Shown in pieces: positions 1,342-19,193 of a stretch of 34,717 bases of DNA (the first letter of the stretch is position 1; each line of letters opens with the position of its first letter). The stretch comes from a virus, in IMG/VR virus record IMGVR_UViG_3300032242_001198, positions 1 to 34,717 of that record; one strand, given 5' to 3'. The notes beneath the pieces were generated by a model. The model was given only the letters and a program-made list of their open reading frames with translations. It was not told the origin of the DNA and searched no databases. Both the position numbers and the translations under genes were made by a program.

Positions 1342-1728
1342 ATGTCTTACAGCGCACAAGTGATTGACCATTATGAAAACCCACGAAATGTTGGTAGTTT
1401 TAGTAAAGATGAAGAAGATGTGGGCGTAGGACTTGTAGGAGCCCCGTCGTGTGGGGACGTCCTTAAGTTGAGTATTAAAGTAGATAAAATAACAGGGATA
1501 ATAACAGATGCCAAATTTAAAACATATGGGTGCGGGTCGGCAATTGCTAGTTCAAGTCTTATCACAGACTGGGTCAGGGGTAAAACATTGGATGAAGCAA
1601 CCTCTATTAAAAACTCCCATATCGCAGAAGAACTCAGCCTTCCCCCAGTCAAAATCCACTGCAGTATCCTCGCCGAAGACGCCATCAAAGCCGCAGTAGA
1701 AGATTATAGAAAGAAATATAATGGCTAA
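1342..1728 (+). CDS. iscU: IscU-type Fe-S cluster scaffold protein
   Basis: 128 residues, the normal length of bacterial IscU, and collinear with it from MSYSAQVIDHYENPRNVGSF to the end. IscU is the scaffold on which IscS-derived sulfur and iron are built into [2Fe-2S] clusters before transfer to apo-proteins. All expected cluster residues are present: Cys37, Asp39, Cys64, His106 and Cys107. The LPPVK motif (100-104) that binds the HscA chaperone is intact, so the protein should plug into the host Isc machinery. No iscS, hscA or fdx accompanies it. A good AGGAG site lies 6 nt before the ATG. It overlaps the next gene by 8 nt and leads the iron-protein cassette. The 3' part (about 1596-1705) is clearly GC-richer than the neighbouring genes, which points to acquisition from a host. 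Confidence 0.95.
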   Translation: MSYSAQVIDHYENPRNVGSFSKDEEDVGVGLVGAPSCGDVLKLSIKVDKITGIITDAKFKTYGCGSAIASSSLITDWVRGKTLDEATSIKNSHIAEELSLPPVKIHCSILAEDAIKAAVEDYRKKYNG

Positions 1729-2023
1729 TGAATTAGCAAAATTCTTAAACTCACAACGCCGATATAGGGATGAAAATGCAGTTAAGAAACAAGTTAAGAT
1801 TGCAAAACAACATGGATTGTCTAATAAAGATAAATCAGTAAAAGAACCACATCGTTTAGTTAAACATCATGCTATGGATTGTGGTATACCGAGTTGTCCT
1901 TTATGTAGTAACCCTCGCAGAACTCATAAAGATACACTAACAGCACAAGAGAAAAGATTGTTTCAGGATACTGAAAAAATCACAGATAAACACAGTAATG
2001 GATTAAAACCAACTGAAGAATGA
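1721..2023 (+). CDS. Small Cys-containing conserved-type protein
   Basis: 100 residues, very basic in the first half (many Lys, Arg and His). The core at about 49-70 has HHAMDCGIPSCPLCSNPRRT, with three Cys in a C-x4-C-x2-C arrangement, followed by a TAQEKR segment that resembles small bacterial and phage proteins with a C..C..NPR motif before a TIQE/TAQE stretch. A metal-binding knuckle is plausible but a fourth ligand is not obvious. His residues just upstream could supply one. It overlaps iscU by 8 nt and is followed 21 nt later by rubrerythrin, so it belongs to the iron cassette. I cannot assign a function. Confidence 0.75.
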   Translation: MANELAKFLNSQRRYRDENAVKKQVKIAKQHGLSNKDKSVKEPHRLVKHHAMDCGIPSCPLCSNPRRTHKDTLTAQEKRLFQDTEKITDKHSNGLKPTEE

Positions 2024-2044
2024 CTTACACACAAAGGAGAAACT

Positions 2045-2509
2045 ATGTCAGAAACTATAACTAGCCTACAAGGGGCTTTAGCAGGCGAAAGCCAAGCACA
2101 CATTAAATATCGTTATTTTGCAAAGATTGCACGTGCAGAAGGATATGAAGATATTGCAAAACATTTTGAGCATACAGCAGACCAAGAACTACTACATGCT
2201 TGGGGTCATTTAGAATTGCTACTTAAGAAACCAGATACTAAACAATGTTTAGAAATGGCTATTGAGGGTGAGACTTATGAGTTTGAAGTTATGTATCCTG
2301 AATTCCGTGAGATTGCAGAATTTGAAGGCAATTTGAATGCGGCTAAAGAAGCAGAACATCAGATTGAAGAATCACAGCGCCATGCTAGTGAGTTTAAAGA
2401 AATACTAAAGAAAGCAGAGAAGCGTTTTGCGGCACTTGCTAAAGTTGAAAAACGTCATGCAGAAGCATATCAAGCTAAATTAGATGAATTAACAAAGGGA
2501 GCAGAATAA
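2045..2509 (+). CDS. Rubrerythrin (ferritin-like diiron protein)
   Basis: 154 residues forming the four-helix ferritin-like domain of rubrerythrin, which reduces hydrogen peroxide at a diiron site. The expected carboxylate and His ligands are visible in order: Glu in GESQAHIKY (helix 1), FEHTADQELLHAWGHL (ExxH type, helix 2), EGETYEFEVMYPEF, and EEAEHQ-like plus EEAEHQIEE-type repeats in helix 3-4, ending with KVEKRHAEAY. The classical C-terminal rubredoxin domain is missing here. It is encoded instead by the next gene, whose start overlaps this stop (TAATG). A strong AAAGGAG lies 5 nt before the ATG. Likely roles are peroxide defence in the infected cell or iron handling. Confidence 0.93.
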   Translation: MSETITSLQGALAGESQAHIKYRYFAKIARAEGYEDIAKHFEHTADQELLHAWGHLELLLKKPDTKQCLEMAIEGETYEFEVMYPEFREIAEFEGNLNAAKEAEHQIEESQRHASEFKEILKKAEKRFAALAKVEKRHAEAYQAKLDELTKGAE

Positions 2510-2637
2510 TGGAACACGTATGCGTAATTTGCGGTCATGTACATGATGAAGTGACTGAAGGTAAATGGGATGAATTGCCAGCTGATTTTCTATGTCCAGA
2601 ATGTGGATGTGGTAAAGATGAGTATGAACTAATTTAA
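2509..2637 (+). CDS. Rubredoxin-like protein, 42 aa
   Basis: A 42-residue gene whose ATG shares one base with the rubrerythrin stop (TAATG), so the two are translationally coupled. It reads MEHVCVICGHVHDE, then a W-x2-LP-x-D segment (WDELPADF) and LCPECG, and ends KDEYELI. The two CxxC knuckles (Cys5/Cys8 and Cys29/Cys32) form the rubredoxin Fe(Cys)4 site. The spacing between them is 20 residues, about nine fewer than in free-standing rubredoxins but longer than in rubrerythrin C-terminal domains. An additional Cys34 is present. It would pass single electrons to rubrerythrin and possibly to the desaturase downstream. Confidence 0.9.
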   Translation: MEHVCVICGHVHDEVTEGKWDELPADFLCPECGCGKDEYELI

Positions 2638-2639
2638 AT

Positions 2640-3179
2640 ATGGTAATACATGAAATTCATGATTTATCAAATGAATATGTAACTACTTTATTAAAGAAAG
2701 GTCTAAGTGAAATCACGGATGAGAATTTAAAAAACAACTATCATCCTGATTATATAGACACTCCGGGAAATTTGTTTTGCATATTGAAACAAGGTAGATA
2801 TGTTAATGGAAAGTACTATGTATTAGAAGTAGATGGACAATATATATGTAGTGCGGGATGGAATGAATACGAGCTAGATAGTAATATAGCATTATTGCTA
2901 ACAAGATTGTATATAGCACCAAAACATAGAACAAAGCAATATGCAGGCACATATATTTTACCTAAAGCTTTAGAAGAAGCAAAGAATTATAAACATATTT
3001 GGTTGACCGTCAATGAATACAACAAGGGATTATATTCATGGTTTGATAGGAGATTAAAGGGCAGAAGGACAGGACTATTTTGTGACTGGCCCGAAATATA
3101 TAAAAAGTTTACACCTATAGGTAAGAGACATATATATTATACTGAACAATATGTAGTGGAGTATCAACCAAATGCCTAA
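2640..3179 (+). CDS. GNAT-like acetyltransferase
   Basis: 179 residues. The central part has the strand-helix pattern of the GNAT fold: VLEVDGQYICSAGW (strands 2-3), LLLTRLYIAPKHRTKQYAGTYI (strand 4 and the acetyl-CoA loop, here R-x-K-x-Y-A-G), then IWLTVNEYNKGLYSWF, the usual strand 5/helix 4 'N..a..fy.r.GF' element. GNAT enzymes transfer acyl groups from CoA to amines. The substrate cannot be told. No clear Shine-Dalgarno is visible, so the start may depend on coupling to rubredoxin, whose stop is 2 nt upstream. It overlaps the desaturase by 8 nt. Confidence 0.65.
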   Translation: MVIHEIHDLSNEYVTTLLKKGLSEITDENLKNNYHPDYIDTPGNLFCILKQGRYVNGKYYVLEVDGQYICSAGWNEYELDSNIALLLTRLYIAPKHRTKQYAGTYILPKALEEAKNYKHIWLTVNEYNKGLYSWFDRRLKGRRTGLFCDWPEIYKKFTPIGKRHIYYTEQYVVEYQPNA

Positions 3180-3948
3180 TAACAAAAACATCCTTAGCAT
3201 ACCTTTTTTGATGTTTTTTCCTATGCACATAGGTGTACTTTTAATACCGTTCATATCAACTATTAGTTGGTTACATCTATGGTATTTTCTCATAGGGTAT
3301 ATATTGATATGTGGTCTAGGAAATAATGTAGGACTACATCGTTGGGCAAGTCACAAGTCAGTTGAATTAGGAACATATTCAAAATATATCGTATTGTTTT
3401 TTAGCATGATGGCAGCACAAGGTCACGCTATCTGGTGGGCGGCATTACATAGAGGTATGCACCATAGACATTCTGATACTGATAAAGATTTACATAGTCC
3501 TATGCATGGCAAATGGCATGCGTTTCACGGTTGGGAATGGAAGCACGATCCGGCTACAGTAAACTATAAGTATGTTATTGACTTGTTACGAGACCCATTA
3601 CTAGTCATTACCGGTAAGTATTATAAATTAATTGTTTTATCTACTTGGATTTTTGTAGGCTGTATCAATTTAGATTTGTTATTATGGATGTTCTTATTAC
3701 CTGCAGTATTAGGTTTACATCTTGAGGGTATGGTTAATTTGTTATGTCACACAAATATAGGTTACAGAAATTTTGAAACTAAAGACAATTCACATAATGT
3801 TCCCTTATTGGGTATATTAAACTGGGGTAACGGATGGCATAATAACCATCATTATAATCAAAGCTCATACGATTTTGGGTCTAGAATATCTAATAAATGG
3901 TATGAATTTGACCCGTGTAAGATGTTTTTACCTTTATTAAAATATTAA
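3172..3948 (+). CDS. Membrane fatty acid desaturase (delta-9 type)
   Basis: 258 residues with the three histidine boxes of the membrane diiron desaturase family: HRWASH (H-x4-H, about residue 57), HRGMHHRH (H-x2-HH type, about 94, followed by SDTDKDLHS) and GWHNNHHY (about 222). Hydrophobic segments at about 5-50, 67-85 and 150-185 give the usual two paired membrane spans. This family inserts a cis double bond into acyl chains using O2 and two electrons from a carrier protein. The order HRxxSH / HRxHHxxSD / HNNHH is that of stearoyl-CoA or acyl-lipid delta-9 desaturases. Its start overlaps the GNAT-like gene by 8 nt. A rubredoxin encoded 0.5 kb upstream is a possible electron donor. Confidence 0.93.
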   Translation: MPNNKNILSIPFLMFFPMHIGVLLIPFISTISWLHLWYFLIGYILICGLGNNVGLHRWASHKSVELGTYSKYIVLFFSMMAAQGHAIWWAALHRGMHHRHSDTDKDLHSPMHGKWHAFHGWEWKHDPATVNYKYVIDLLRDPLLVITGKYYKLIVLSTWIFVGCINLDLLLWMFLLPAVLGLHLEGMVNLLCHTNIGYRNFETKDNSHNVPLLGILNWGNGWHNNHHYNQSSYDFGSRISNKWYEFDPCKMFLPLLKY

Positions 3949-4992: not shown

Positions 4993-5281
4993 TAGATAGC
5001 GTGAATAGGCAACGAGAGCCGTAATACAGCGTTAAATGTATAGAATGGGCGGACAGTACACATGAAATTTGTGGCGATAACACAAAAAGTAAGACTACTG
5101 GGTAGGGTAATAACCCTATCATGTCGTGTAGAGATACACGGCATTCTAAAACATACTATTGATTGTCATAGGGATATGTTAATATTGGGTGAAAAGCCCG
5201 ATAGATTCATAGTATGTTTTAGAATGCTTATTACGGAGAAACAGAAGCCCTGACCCCTGAAAGGTTGAGCCGTAATATCAT
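4993..5281 (+). ncRNA. Structured noncoding leader before the first tRNAs
   Basis: No convincing coding sequence. Several perfect stems occur in a row: GGTAGGGT (5101-5108) with ACCCTATC (5113-5120), CGTGTA-GAGA-TACACG (5125-5140) with a GNRA-type tetraloop, and a 19-bp stem 5141-5159/5209-5227 enclosing a 6-bp hairpin (ATTGGG/CCCGAT). The 11-mer GAGCCGTAATA is present at both ends (5016-5026 and 5267-5277). It is transcribed from the 4815 promoter and joined to tRNA-Arg. It may be a noncoding RNA or a processing leader; no known class is recognised. Confidence 0.4.
5141..5227 (+). repeat. 19-bp perfect inverted repeat
   Basis: GCATTCTAAAACATACTAT (5141-5159) is exactly complementary to 5209-5227. 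The 49-nt loop contains a second hairpin. There is no T-tract, so it is not a terminator. Confidence 0.85.
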
Positions 5282-5455: not shown

Positions 5456-5498
5456 ATTGAACTATGATAAATACTTTTATAGTTAAAAAGAGTTCAAT
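5456..5498 (+). promoter_or_regulatory. Hairpin with late-like promoter in its loop (HNH gene control)
   Basis: ATTGAACT (5456-5463) pairs perfectly with AGTTCAAT (5491-5498), which sits between the ribosome site AAGAG and the ATG at 5499. The loop holds GATAAATA (5466-5473). Read-through RNA would fold and hide the start. RNA started from the loop element (about 5480) would lack the 5' arm and be free for translation. Confidence 0.55.
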
Positions 5499-6077
5499 AT
5501 GAAACAGTGTCCAAAATGCGGAGCACAACACAAAAAATTAGGAACATATTGTTCTAGGTCGTGTGCTAATAGTAGAATATTTTCTGATGAAGCTAAACTC
5601 AAAAAGAGCATAGCACTTAAAGGAAAACCAGCTTTTCGAAGCCATTATGATAAAGAGGCGCAAGCCGCTAAGTCTCGTCAGAGGTGGTTAGAAAAATATA
5701 ATGCTACCCCGTTTGTTGAGTTGGGTATAGAGAACAGACGCCGCAGAGTGTTTGAAGAACAAGATTACTGTTGTAACAAGTGTGGTATAAGTGAATGGCA
5801 GGGCTGTAAGATTCCACTTGAACTTGAACATAAAGACGGTAACTCAACCAATAATGTTAGAGAAAATTTAGAAGGCTTGTGTCCAAACTGTCACAGTATT
5901 ACTGATACTTGGCGAGGCAGAAATAAACCTTCAAAAAATGGTGTGAATATAGTTACTGATGAGTTTTTATTACAGTGCTTAACCGAAACTAATAATATTA
6001 GACAAGGATTACTTAAAGCAGGCTTATCAGCAAAAGGTAATAACTATGCAAGAGCAAAAAAACTTTTAGGTAGGTAA
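5499..6077 (+). CDS. HNH homing-type endonuclease with zinc fingers
   Basis: 192 residues. The N-terminal knuckle CPKCG...CSRSC (4-22) is a four-Cys zinc site. The HNH domain at about 90-135 has CNKCG, then LELEHKDGNSTNNVRENLEGLCPNCHS, with the His of the LEH segment, Asn residues of the middle strand and the second CxxC plus H of CPNCH. A C-terminal helix-rich part (about 150-192) may bind DNA. This layout is typical of free-standing phage HNH endonucleases that spread between tRNA or other genes. It lies between tRNA-Lys and tRNA-Ser, is flanked by a 9-bp direct repeat, and is preceded by a regulatory hairpin. Confidence 0.9.
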   Translation: MKQCPKCGAQHKKLGTYCSRSCANSRIFSDEAKLKKSIALKGKPAFRSHYDKEAQAAKSRQRWLEKYNATPFVELGIENRRRRVFEEQDYCCNKCGISEWQGCKIPLELEHKDGNSTNNVRENLEGLCPNCHSITDTWRGRNKPSKNGVNIVTDEFLLQCLTETNNIRQGLLKAGLSAKGNNYARAKKLLGR

Positions 6078-6841: not shown

Positions 6842-7507
6842 TCAGTTAATAAGTTTCCATCCGCAAACTGTTTTTTGCGTACCGGCGACAACCATACTTA
6901 CTGATGACTGTCTTAACTTGAACTTTGTTCTAAAATCGTACATAGTTCCGATAAATTGTGTATTTGTTTCATTATGCTCAAATGTGAAAATTGTGTGGTT
7001 GTAATTTGGATTTTTTGATTGTGTTTTGCTAGAAGCTAACATTCTGCCCTCAGCAGACTTCATAAACTCAGCACCCTTTTTACCCCATACAGAGCGCATT
7101 TTTTTGTTTTCAGGATCGAGTTTCCAAACAGTTTCATATTGTTCCTTCATCTTTTTTGATGATTTGATACGATTGTGTTCTTGTTTCTGCGGATTCTTGT
7201 TCCCGCAAAACTGATGTTCACCTGATTGTATTCGTTGTTGATTAACTTTTTTGGATAGAGATGACATTTCTTCAGGTGATAACTTCATTTTTCTGGCAAT
7301 TAAATAACATGCTCCCCAGTCAGCCTGGTTGAAATGTATGTTATAATGTTCTTGAATCGTTAGGCATTGTAGATTTGAAATGTCATTATTTTGGTGATTA
7401 CCATCTAGATGGTGTATTTCATAAGATCTACCTTGGTCGTCTTTTGGGATAGGCCCAAAATTTGACTCATAAATTTTTCTATAATTGTTACCTGTGTAAA
7501 TAGACAT
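6842..7507 (-). CDS. HNH homing endonuclease with C-terminal NUMOD-like DNA-binding repeat
   Basis: 221 residues. The N-terminal HNH motif is at about 28-57: YEIHHLDGNHQNNDISNLQC followed by LTIQEHYNIH, with the paired His, central Asn and final His. The middle is a basic, helical linker (about 85-165, with GNKNPQKQEHNRIK). The C-terminus (about 183-220) has MYDFRTKFKLRQSSVSMVV and a final VCGWKLIN, like the NUMOD1/IENR1 helix-turn-helix repeat of homing endonucleases. It is on the strand opposite to the flanking tRNAs. GATAAATA lies 23 nt upstream of its start (plus-strand 7530-7537). Confidence 0.9.
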   Translation of the reverse strand: MSIYTGNNYRKIYESNFGPIPKDDQGRSYEIHHLDGNHQNNDISNLQCLTIQEHYNIHFNQADWGACYLIARKMKLSPEEMSSLSKKVNQQRIQSGEHQFCGNKNPQKQEHNRIKSSKKMKEQYETVWKLDPENKKMRSVWGKKGAEFMKSAEGRMLASSKTQSKNPNYNHTIFTFEHNETNTQFIGTMYDFRTKFKLRQSSVSMVVAGTQKTVCGWKLIN

Positions 7508-8140: not shown

Positions 8141-8169
8141 TTGACATAAAAGTTTTCCTATGATACAAT
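8141..8169 (+). promoter_or_regulatory. Sigma70 promoter TTGACA-17-TACAAT
   Basis: TTGACA (8141-8146), 17-nt spacer and TACAAT (8164-8169) in the context CTATGATACAATAG shared with other promoters here. It lies 18 nt before tRNA-Thr. Confidence 0.85.
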
Positions 8170-8187: not shown

Positions 8188-8262
8188 GCCCTTATAGCTC
8201 AGTGGTAGAGCAGCGCCCTTGTAAGGCGAAGGTCCCGTGTTCAAGTCATGGTGGGGGCACCA
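8188..8262 (+). tRNA. tRNA-Thr(TGT)
   Basis: Acceptor GCCCTTA/TGGGGGC with two G-U pairs, D-arm GCTC/GAGC, anticodon loop CTTGTAA on a 4-bp stem CGCC/GGCG, T-arm present, discriminator A and encoded CCA. Reads ACN. Confidence 0.92.
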
Positions 8263-8282
8263 AAGAAATATTGTCAGTTTAT

Positions 8283-8358
8283 TCCCCAGTAGCACAGCGG
8301 CAGTTGCACCTGACTGTTAATCAGGGTGTCGGTGGTTCGATCCCATCCTGGGGAGCCA
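8283..8358 (+). tRNA. tRNA-Asn(GTT)
   Basis: Acceptor TCCCCAG/CTGGGGA, anticodon stem CCTGA/TCAGG with loop CTGTTAA, T-arm around TTCGATC, discriminator G and encoded CCA, as in bacterial tRNA-Asn. Confidence 0.95.
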
Positions 8359-8369
8359 AATATATATTT

Positions 8370-8423
8370 CATACAGTAGAGTGATAAATAAAAGTATACT
8401 TTTAGAAAAGGCTCTACTGTATG
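8370..8423 (+). promoter_or_regulatory. Hairpin hiding the HNH start codon, late-like promoter in loop
   Basis: CATACAGTAGAG (8370-8381) is exactly complementary to CTCTACTGTATG (8412-8423), whose last three bases are the start codon of the HNH gene. The loop holds GATAAATA (8383-8390), a 14-nt palindrome AAAAGTATACTTTT (8390-8403) and the AAAAGG ribosome site. RNA from upstream tRNA promoters would fold and block initiation. RNA started in the loop would not contain the 5' arm. Confidence 0.65.
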
Positions 8424-8864
8424 AATTATAAAGGCACAAAAGACAAACTCTTTACATGTAAACATTGTAATACTGAGTTTAAATTCAAAGGCTATAGTTA
8501 TAACCACATTTTTTGTAGTTTAGATTGTTCCTACGCACATCAAACAAAACAAAAAAACATCTTATCAGAACAGCGATATCAAGATTGGTTGGCTGGGATT
8601 GACTTGGGTGTAAAAAACCTCAGAAAGTTAGTTAGAGATTTTTTAACTCGCAGAGACGGTTACAAATGTAGTTGCTGTGGAATAGATAGTTACAATGGTA
8701 AACCTATTACGTTGTGGATAGATCATATTGACGGTGATGCGTCAAACAATCACCAAACGAATTTTAGATTTATGTGTCCTAATTGCGATAGCCAATCAGA
8801 AACATTCGGTGGCAAAAATTACGGTAAGGGTAGAAAATCTCGTGGTATACCGCAATACGGTTGA
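8421..8864 (+). CDS. HNH homing-type endonuclease with zinc fingers
   Basis: 147 residues. The N-terminus has a Cys4 zinc site (CKHCN at 14-18 and CSLDC about 32-36). The HNH core follows at about 80-125: CSCCG, then LWIDHIDGDASNNHQTNFRF and MCPNCDSQ, with the DH pair, Asn residues and the second CxxC. It resembles the HNH gene at 5499 in layout and lies between tRNA-Asn and tRNA-Arg. Its start codon is locked in the hairpin 8370-8423, and its stop overlaps the -35 box of the next promoter. Confidence 0.9.
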   Translation: MNYKGTKDKLFTCKHCNTEFKFKGYSYNHIFCSLDCSYAHQTKQKNILSEQRYQDWLAGIDLGVKNLRKLVRDFLTRRDGYKCSCCGIDSYNGKPITLWIDHIDGDASNNHQTNFRFMCPNCDSQSETFGGKNYGKGRKSRGIPQYG

Positions 8865-8889
8865 CAACAACTCACCAATCTGCTATAAT
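8861..8889 (+). promoter_or_regulatory. Consensus sigma70 promoter TTGACA-17-TATAAT
   Basis: TTGACA (8861-8866) overlaps the stop codon of the HNH gene. A 17-nt spacer and TATAAT (8884-8889) follow, 21 nt before tRNA-Arg(TCT). Confidence 0.9.
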
Positions 8890-8910
8890 AGAGGCAAGTT
8901 AGACATTTAT

Positions 8911-8985
8911 CTGGGGTTAGTATAATGGATAATACAGCTGCCTTCTAAGCAGTCAATACAGGTTCGATTCCTGTACCCCGGACCA
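8911..8985 (+). tRNA. tRNA-Arg(TCT)
   Basis: Acceptor CTGGGGT/ACCCCGG (one U-G), anticodon stem GCTGC/GCAGT with loop CTTCTAA, T-arm ACAGG-TTCGATT-CCTGT, discriminator A and encoded CCA. Reads AGA and AGG. Confidence 0.94.
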
Positions 8986-9157: not shown

Positions 9158-9401
9158 ATCATATATCCCTGTTTAAGTTACAGGGCTCTATATGAAAATA
9201 CATTAAGGTCACCTAATCCGTTAGGCAGGTCTATGGGGTCAGCCAGTTGACGGACTGGGTCGCATAGGGTGCAAGAAGCGTATCGGCAATAGCAATATTG
9301 TTTAACGTGACGGGCAGTTAGGCAGTAATGACAGAAACAACGATCCAGTAGACGGTACTGGTGGATACAGTTTACGTTCCTTAATGTTTTTTCATATAGT
9401 G

Positions 9402-9529
9402 TGTTATTAGTTTTGCTGATGTAAGCCATGGGGGAAACGTCAACCCTGAGTAACTATGTATATAAACGGTACGTCCAGCTGGCAATTCCGTTGAGCATAG
9501 CAAATAGTGCGTCAGCAAAACTAATAACA
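9402..9529 (+). repeat. 18-bp perfect inverted repeat
   Basis: TGTTATTAGTTTTGCTGA (9402-9419) is exactly complementary to 9512-9529, and G-U and Watson-Crick pairs extend the stem inward by about four. The 92-nt interior contains AACGG/CCGTT and the palindrome CCAGCTGG. It ends 4 nt before tRNA-Glu. Confidence 0.85.
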
Positions 9530-9533
9530 TTTG

Positions 9534-12303: not shown

Positions 12304-12380
12304 GCCCAGGTGATGGAATTGGTATACATGCCGGTCTTAGAAGCCGTATTTTGAGAGTTCGAGTCTCTCCTTGGGCACCA
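12304..12380 (+). tRNA. tRNA-Leu(TAG), short variable arm
   Basis: Acceptor GCCCAGG/CTTGGGC, a D-loop of tRNA-Leu type (GGAATTGGTA), anticodon loop CTTAGAA on a stem CGGT/GCCG, T-arm GAGAG-TTCGAGT-CTCTC, discriminator A and encoded CCA. The variable region is only about five bases (ATTTT) where leucine tRNAs normally have a long arm. Reads CUN. Confidence 0.88.
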
Positions 12381-12455
12381 TATAGAAACACATTTGAATT
12401 CATAATACTTTGGTACGGGGAGGTAATGCGTCTCCGGGAGTGTGTTTCTATATGG
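12378..12455 (+). repeat. 15-bp inverted repeat joining two tRNAs
   Basis: CCATATAGAAACACA (12378-12392), which includes the CCA end of tRNA-Leu, is exactly complementary to TGTGTTTCTATATGG (12441-12455), which includes the first two bases of tRNA-Ala. A smaller GGGAG/CTCC hairpin lies inside. No T-tract follows. Confidence 0.85.
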
Positions 12456-18631: not shown

Positions 18632-18802
18632 ATGTCAAAATATACTTTCATTGACAATCCCAAAGTCAAAGAGATTTTGGAACTTGCTGACAGTCTCCGT
18701 GAATGTTTGGAATATCCCAATAGTGAAACATCATTGGACGAACGTAGGTATTCGGAGCATTTTGAACAGAAGATCCTAGAAGTTATCAAACGTAAGAAGT
18801 AA
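18632..18802 (+). CDS. Small hypothetical protein, 56 aa
   Basis: The ATG at 18632 follows AAAGGAAAATGAT; a longer in-frame start at 18584 lies in the promoter and is rejected. The peptide MSKYTFIDNPKVKEILELAD is followed by SLRECLEYPNSETSLDERRY and a basic tail. It is mostly helical and shares no motif I recognise. It is the single gene between two early-type promoters. Confidence 0.75.
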   Translation: MSKYTFIDNPKVKEILELADSLRECLEYPNSETSLDERRYSEHFEQKILEVIKRKK

Positions 18803-18819
18803 GTACTATACGCCTAAAT

Positions 18820-18848
18820 TTGACAAATAATCAATTTGGGCGTATAAT
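18820..18848 (+). promoter_or_regulatory. Consensus sigma70 promoter TTGACA-17-TATAAT
   Basis: TTGACA (18820-18825), 17-nt spacer and TATAAT (18843-18848). The -10 box ends only 6 nt before the ATG at 18855, so the message is expected to be leaderless. Confidence 0.92.
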
Positions 18849-18854
18849 TCATCT

Positions 18855-19193
18855 ATGAACTCAAAAATCGTCCGCAAACGTAGAACAGATAGAAATCAAG
18901 TGATATACTATATCCGTGATACAGTAACACTTGAGTATTACATTGGTTTGACCGCACTTTGTTTCAATGGCAATGTTCGTAAGACATTAGTCCGTCGTAT
19001 GCAAAAACATATGCAACGTGCTATGACTGAAAACAAAGATTGGGGTTTGAGTCGTGCATTGCGTGAACGTGGTGCCGAGCGTTTTGTATTCGGTGTCATT
19101 GAGGTAGTTCGTGGCAAGCGTCCTGCTCATGCACGTGAGACCGAATTGATTAATAGTTTACAACCTGCACTTAACACAGTTGGAGTAAAATGA
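18855..19193 (+). CDS. GIY-YIG nuclease domain protein
   Basis: 112 residues, essentially one GIY-YIG domain: VIYYIRDTVTLEYYIGLTA (12-ish to 33; the two Tyr strands and YIG), Arg/His helix VRRMQKHMQRAM, WGLSRALRERGAERFVFGVIE, then the catalytic Glu in RETELINSLQPALNT. Unlike the gene at 13583 it has no DNA-binding repeats. It could be a small free-standing homing nuclease or a nuclease for host DNA. It is apparently expressed early from a leaderless message, and it overlaps the next gene by up to 4 nt. Confidence 0.85.
   Translation: MNSKIVRKRRTDRNQVIYYIRDTVTLEYYIGLTALCFNGNVRKTLVRRMQKHMQRAMTENKDWGLSRALRERGAERFVFGVIEVVRGKRPAHARETELINSLQPALNTVGVK

Follow-up and report, generated by a model that had tools for sequence, protein, structure and literature searches.

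We consider it likely, with considerable confidence, that the window (the whole 34,717-nt stretch of viral DNA analysed here) carries a free-standing HNH homing endonuclease gene under the control of a translational lock in the style of phage T4, and that this control is inherited along with the cassette in which the gene lies. The stem, its conservation by compensatory change, the fixed place of a promoter motif, an empty site in a relative and gp55-type genes in other relatives can all be read from the sequences; that the late promoter is used, that translation is blocked on read-through RNA and that the enzyme is active in homing are predictions drawn from them.

The lock occupies positions 8370-8423 of the plus strand, starting 11 nt past the end of tRNA-Asn. 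Its 5' arm, CATACAGTAGAG (8370-8381; identified from sequence, RNA folding and covariation), is a perfect 12-bp complement of its 3' arm, CTCTACTGTATG (8412-8423), the last three bases of which are the HNH start codon (ATG, 8421-8423). Between the arms are a T4-late-promoter-like octamer, GATAAATA (8383-8390), an inner palindrome, AAAAGTATACTTTT (8390-8403), that forms an inner hairpin in the folded read-through RNA, and a Shine-Dalgarno-like sequence, AGAAAAGG (8404-8411). In all of these respects the first-pass annotation, which had described a perfect 12-bp stem including the start codon and a loop containing a late-promoter-like element, a palindrome and a ribosome site, was correct. When the RNA is folded the stem is prolonged on its loop side by two T-A pairs and one T.G pair, with more pairs past a T/T mismatch, and reaches at least 14 continuous pairs; inner hairpins are seen again in the close relatives of this lock. 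The fold of 8359-8460 has an energy of -31.1 kcal/mol versus -11.7 for dinucleotide shuffles (z = -6.8), and none of 200 shuffles equalled it. The lock is the top inverted repeat with arms no more than 60 nt apart in the window, and it ranks about fourth by stem score among the 3,348 distinct ORFs scanned across the compared loci. A search of Rfam over the window returned no family at the lock, matching only tRNAs and sub-threshold plastid families antisense to tRNA genes, and a near-DNA search of GenBank phages gave no match. An intrinsic terminator at this position was ruled out, because the terminator scan called none there and no T-run follows the stem.

Read-through RNA was modelled as starting either at the promoter of the upstream tRNA operon (8141-8169) or just after tRNA-Asn, and by folding alone the HNH start codon in such RNA has an unpaired probability of 0.001. 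Opening the region from the Shine-Dalgarno sequence to +10 of the gene would cost 24.8 kcal/mol on the read-through RNA versus 4.7 kcal/mol on RNA starting at 8396, removal of the 5' arm lowering the predicted cost by 20 kcal/mol. Across 24 other window genes the median is 6.1 kcal/mol, and a like calculation gave 19.0 (read-through) versus 7.2 kcal/mol (late RNA) for T4 segB and 15.9 versus 4.4 kcal/mol for T4 gene e. The folding thus supports the earlier proposals that read-through RNA would bury the start and that RNA begun in the loop, lacking the 5' arm, would not. We conclude that on read-through RNA the modelled helix hides the HNH Shine-Dalgarno sequence and/or start codon.

A wider HNH search, in which relatives were gathered by HNH similarity, gave 80 loci, and a non-redundant set of 67 HNH genes (that of the window and its relatives) was compared with 241 other ORFs from the same loci. 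The motif [AC]TAAATA was present at -48 to -16 from the start in 44 of the 67 HNH genes versus 18 of the 241 controls, with 1.8 expected from shuffled leaders, and in the motif-bearing HNH genes it typically lies between the arms. The other 23 HNH genes are without it, and for some of these, as for distant relatives, the start codon is uncertain. A stem over the start codon and around the motif was found for 33 of the 3,348 ORFs, 24 of them being HNH endonucleases as judged by sequence. The lock was also seen in cultured phages, among them Synechococcus phages DSL-LC03 and RN05-S, which have the complete TATAAATA (enclosed in DSL-LC03 by a 10-bp stem that adjoins the start codon), and Cronobacter phage GAP32, which has CTAAATA. 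It is absent, together with the promoter motif, from one close relative whose protein is 65% identical (L193). When the pattern GGTAGAG-N0-3-ATAAATA was run alone over IMG/VR it proved too common; with the 3' arm and ATG added it returned 20 stretches, the real ones being those that encode HNH proteins and the others looking like chance.

The two arms of each lock pair better with one another than with the arms of other locks. Scored for pairing, own arms gave 21.35 versus 14.91 (sd 0.57) for permuted arms, and the own-arm score was reached in none of 20,000 permutations for family A and in 39 of 20,000 for family B, all of these figures being uncorrected for relatedness. It can be seen in the alignments that compensatory changes have occurred on both sides at three pairs in family A and four pairs in family B, and the covariation scores of both families, likewise uncorrected for relatedness, are higher than those of every slid structure and of each of the 500 shuffles. 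Close relatives of the HNH protein have, at the corresponding position, a stem made of other letters, such as ATGGTAGAGC/GCTCTACCAT in L004 and ATACGGTAGA/TCTACCGTAT in L006, and relatives of the second HNH family of the window (gene at 5499-6077) have a different stem, ATATCGAAC/GTTCGATAT, around TAAATA. Counts of G.U versus A.C in the stems were set aside as main evidence, the pairing program being biased. We conclude from the alignments that the helix is kept by selection through compensatory changes.

In another reading the hairpin is a by-product, the endonuclease binding the two arms as a DNA operator and so repressing its own promoter, as known for I-TevI. The arms do flank the promoter, those of family A resemble a tRNA D-arm and so offer a plausible target sequence, and operators resembling homing sites lie over the promoter of I-TevI and, going by sequence, over those of I-TevII and I-TevIII (PMC2988022). 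However, among the relatives the arms differ in sequence, in length (about 6 to 21 pairs) and in spacing and yet stay complementary, which an operator alone would not need, and nor would it need a 3' arm that reaches or covers the start codon. Several of the stems also contain G.U pairs inside, although the pairing program favours these. We regard the operator as an improbable substitute for the RNA lock.

The octamer within the lock agrees with the T4 consensus TATAAATA at 7/8 positions, the first base being the one that differs. GATAAATA occurs seven times in the window, counting both strands, and four of the seven are 26-38 bp upstream of homing-endonuclease-like genes. Going by sequence alone, the octamer at 8383-8390 falls after the 5' arm, which would leave this arm out of the late RNA. 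The start had been proposed near 8397; we take the T4 octamer-to-start spacing to apply, which gives about 8396, so that the proposal stands with a small shift and within a predicted range of about 8396-8398. A gp55-like sigma gene, for which the first-pass annotation had suggested a search, was not found within the window, which is a fragment of a genome and in which gp23 was likewise not found, but among 21 relative contigs, most of them perhaps incomplete, nine carry a gp55-type late sigma factor (PHROG 234/12791). Gp23 scored over the curated cut-off in eight of the 21, including the 110-kb relative G009, where the match is cut by the contig end. Because a clear TATAAATA was seen upstream of gp23 in only one contig (L267), this gene gave no general check of the promoter. 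We consider it likely that the late promoter is used, since gp55-type genes are present in relatives and four of the seven octamers precede endonuclease-like genes.

The lock could also be real and the octamer unused as a late promoter, release coming from RNase cleavage in the loop, from a protein or from upstream translation. That the fragment yielded no late sigma gene and that the first base of the octamer departs from T4 would both fit such a release, and T4 is annotated as encoding RegB, which cuts mRNAs at GGAG. Against this stand the occurrence of [AC]TAAATA upstream of the start codon, and as a rule within the loop, in 44 of the 67 HNH genes and the full T4 consensus in the two cultured Synechococcus phages, and we give release by such routes somewhat less credence than the operator.

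The HNH gene (8421-8864, plus strand) encodes a protein of 147 aa with N-terminal Cys pairs and was identified through PHROG, where HNH families were matched with a best E of 3.5e-23, and through IMG/VR, where it has 11 relatives, the close ones 55-77% identical. The His, Asn and Cys columns of the HNH alignment are invariant; a Pfam search of the protein gave no match at 0.001. The gene lies in a cluster of 27 tRNA genes. Upstream of it on the plus strand are a sigma-70-type promoter, TTGACA-17-TACAAT (8141-8169; 11/12 match, 91% conserved in G009), and the operon of tRNA-Thr (8188-8262) and tRNA-Asn (8283-8358; both from tRNA calls) to which it belongs. G009 shares this operon with its promoter and both tRNA genes, but in it tRNA-Arg comes 14 nt after tRNA-Asn; its DNA identity to the window is roughly 73-97% in the matched parts of the tRNA region. 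Where the window has an inserted cassette of 548 bp (8360-8907, plus strand) G009 has 10 bp, and tRNA-Arg(tct) (8911-8985, plus strand), on the far side of this empty site, is identical in the two. The otherwise conserved tRNA-Asn/tRNA-Arg site is thus polymorphic for the presence of the cassette, which holds, besides the lock and the HNH gene, a perfect sigma-70-type promoter, TTGACA-17-TATAAT (8861-8889, plus strand), that overlaps the HNH stop codon and faces tRNA-Arg, whose transcription it probably restores.

As judged from these sequences, the lock, late promoter, gene and downstream sigma-70-type promoter move together as one cassette, and because of the empty site in G009 we take the regulation of the HNH gene to travel with it. 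The lock had been said apparently to have arisen in this phage, a claim that finds no support, because the lock is family-wide and came with a cassette that is absent from the same locus in G009. No terminator-like site was called between the 8141 promoter and the HNH gene, and read-through into the gene is expected because the empty form has the tRNAs adjacent, with no room for a terminator; the 8141 promoter is the likely source of this RNA.

As the stem begins only 11 nt after tRNA-Asn, it might instead mainly protect the 5' end of the mRNA or aid 3' processing of the tRNA, with no role in timing. We think this very unlikely, as the locks of relatives are found at the start codon whether a different tRNA, a tRNA fragment or no nearby tRNA precedes them, and at varying distances. 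The region is AT-rich, but a chance inverted repeat is hardly credible given the z-score of the fold and covariation in two families.

The reading that we favour, the T4-style lock, draws support from compensatory changes in both families, the fixed place of the motif, the gp55-type sigma genes of relatives and the folding energies, and would operate as follows. The HNH gene and the leader that regulates it lie within a tRNA operon. RNA of the early and middle periods that reads through from 8141, or the RNA left after excision of tRNA-Asn, would contain both arms, so that the start codon would be buried and little endonuclease made. Late in infection RNA polymerase with a gp55-type sigma factor would start just after GATAAATA in the loop, at about 8396, and on this RNA, without the 5' arm, the ribosome site would be open and the endonuclease could be produced.

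The arms themselves have a likeness to tRNA genes. In family A the D-arm sequence that they resemble is GGTAGAGC, 8-mers of the 5' arm mapping to tRNA position ~17-18, and GTTCGA, the core of the T-arm, is present in the family B arms. Some of the locks, furthermore, have a tRNA 5' half before them, and several family B genes have tRNA 3' fragments after them. GGTAGAG was found in the D-arm of tRNA-Asn in none of 15 cases beside a family A gene versus 10 of 32 elsewhere (p = 0.012, uncorrected for relatedness), and T6 SegB prefers RAWTSGAAC, a T-arm-like motif (PMC13096335). The arms could be copies of a conserved tRNA-gene sequence that the endonuclease attacks, the D-arm of the linked tRNA-Asn having been recoded so that it escapes cutting. 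We hold this as a tentative and rather doubtful proposal, because common descent could explain part of the evidence. If it were true, one element would serve at once as the RNA lock, as an operator or decoy target and as a stretch of homology for recombination with many tRNA genes. By analogy with I-TevI the stem may, besides forming the lock, be a target-like operator.

A number of other features were noted in the tRNA cluster. Compared with G009, its tRNAs are either near-identical or strongly diverged, as if swapped piecewise: tRNA-Thr and tRNA-Asn (8188-8358) are only 72-76% identical, and tRNA-Arg(tct) and tRNA-Glu are 100% identical. Two relatives (L202 and L190) have near-identical, unusual tRNA-Asn genes on opposite sides of the HNH gene, after it in one phage and before it in the other, as if tRNA-Asn and HNH gene travel together, and in seven (L217, L219, L220, L224, L226, L227 and L233) lock-bearing HNH genes end 2-6 nt before tRNA-Ile(gat). 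The tRNA-Arg/tRNA-Glu spacer (9185-9533) is predicted to form two long helices (-119.6 kcal/mol, z = -5.9) and has no Rfam match, and is possibly, to judge from the fold, a stable RNA like T4 RNAC/RNAD. An inverted repeat (5141-5227) whose 19-bp arms match perfectly across a 49-nt loop lies just before a tRNA-Arg (5282), in a region (5120-5281) that folds with z = -6.3, and a perfect 15-bp inverted repeat (12378-12455) spans the entire tRNA-Leu/tRNA-Ala spacer. Elsewhere, the phage carries a NifU-like Fe-S assembly gene (in 1342-3948) and, by reading of the sequence, rubrerythrin-like (2045-2509) and fatty-acid-desaturase-like (3172-3948) genes.

The window also contains other endonuclease genes. 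Before the HNH gene at 5499-6077 there is a second, weaker lock on the plus strand, ATTGAAC..GATAAATA..GTTCAAT-ATG, with its octamer at 5466-5473 and the region after the octamer at 5476-5501. This type of lock is strong in relatives L155-L159; in the window its opening energies, 6.1 versus 5.7, show almost no difference, and by modelling it looks decayed in this copy. An HNH/intron-type endonuclease gene on the minus strand (6842-7507) has GATAAATA 30 bp upstream and is absent from the same place in G009. A GIY-YIG gene (18855) has, by eye, a sigma-70-type promoter, TTGACA-17-TATAAT, within 18795-18880, the elements of which overlap a 14-bp inverted repeat (18807-18846) in a different hairpin arrangement.

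Control by a lock and a late promoter was previously known from a few T4-type examples, and is seen here to be conserved, with covariation, as a component of the mobile HNH cassettes that lie in the tRNA clusters of many uncultured and several cultured phages, which suggests that delayed expression is common for such HNH elements. How self-damage is avoided early in infection has been called open for SegB (PMC13096335), and the lock offers a possible answer as to how an endonuclease that possibly cuts tRNA genes could spare its own phage at that stage.

The nearest known system is T4 segB, a free-standing endonuclease gene between the tRNA genes of the T4 tRNA cluster that has CATAAATA 30 bp before its start and a hairpin over its start codon, and that is likewise predicted, by the energies given above, to be locked on read-through RNA and more open late. 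It differs in encoding a GIY-YIG rather than an HNH nuclease and in that the octamer itself is in the 5' arm, whereas here the arm is upstream of the octamer. For T4 I-TevI, I-TevII and I-TevIII, the ribosome site is hidden in transcripts begun at promoters further upstream, and the late promoter of I-TevI is positioned such that no hairpin can form in the late RNA (PMC2988022, PMC3014915). These genes are, however, intron-encoded, and the block on I-TevI protects splicing; no intron was seen at the HNH locus of the window. By its description, mobE of Aeromonas phage Aeh1 is also alike, being a free-standing HNH gene with a hairpin over its ribosome site (PMC2988022, PMC3014915), although it is found at a ribonucleotide reductase locus and the HNH gene of the window in a tRNA cluster. 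Finally, T4 gene e (lysozyme), the proven case of a lock where segB is an implicated one, follows the same logic, its late promoters lying within the region of the hairpin (PMC3014915), but is a host-lysis gene and not mobile.
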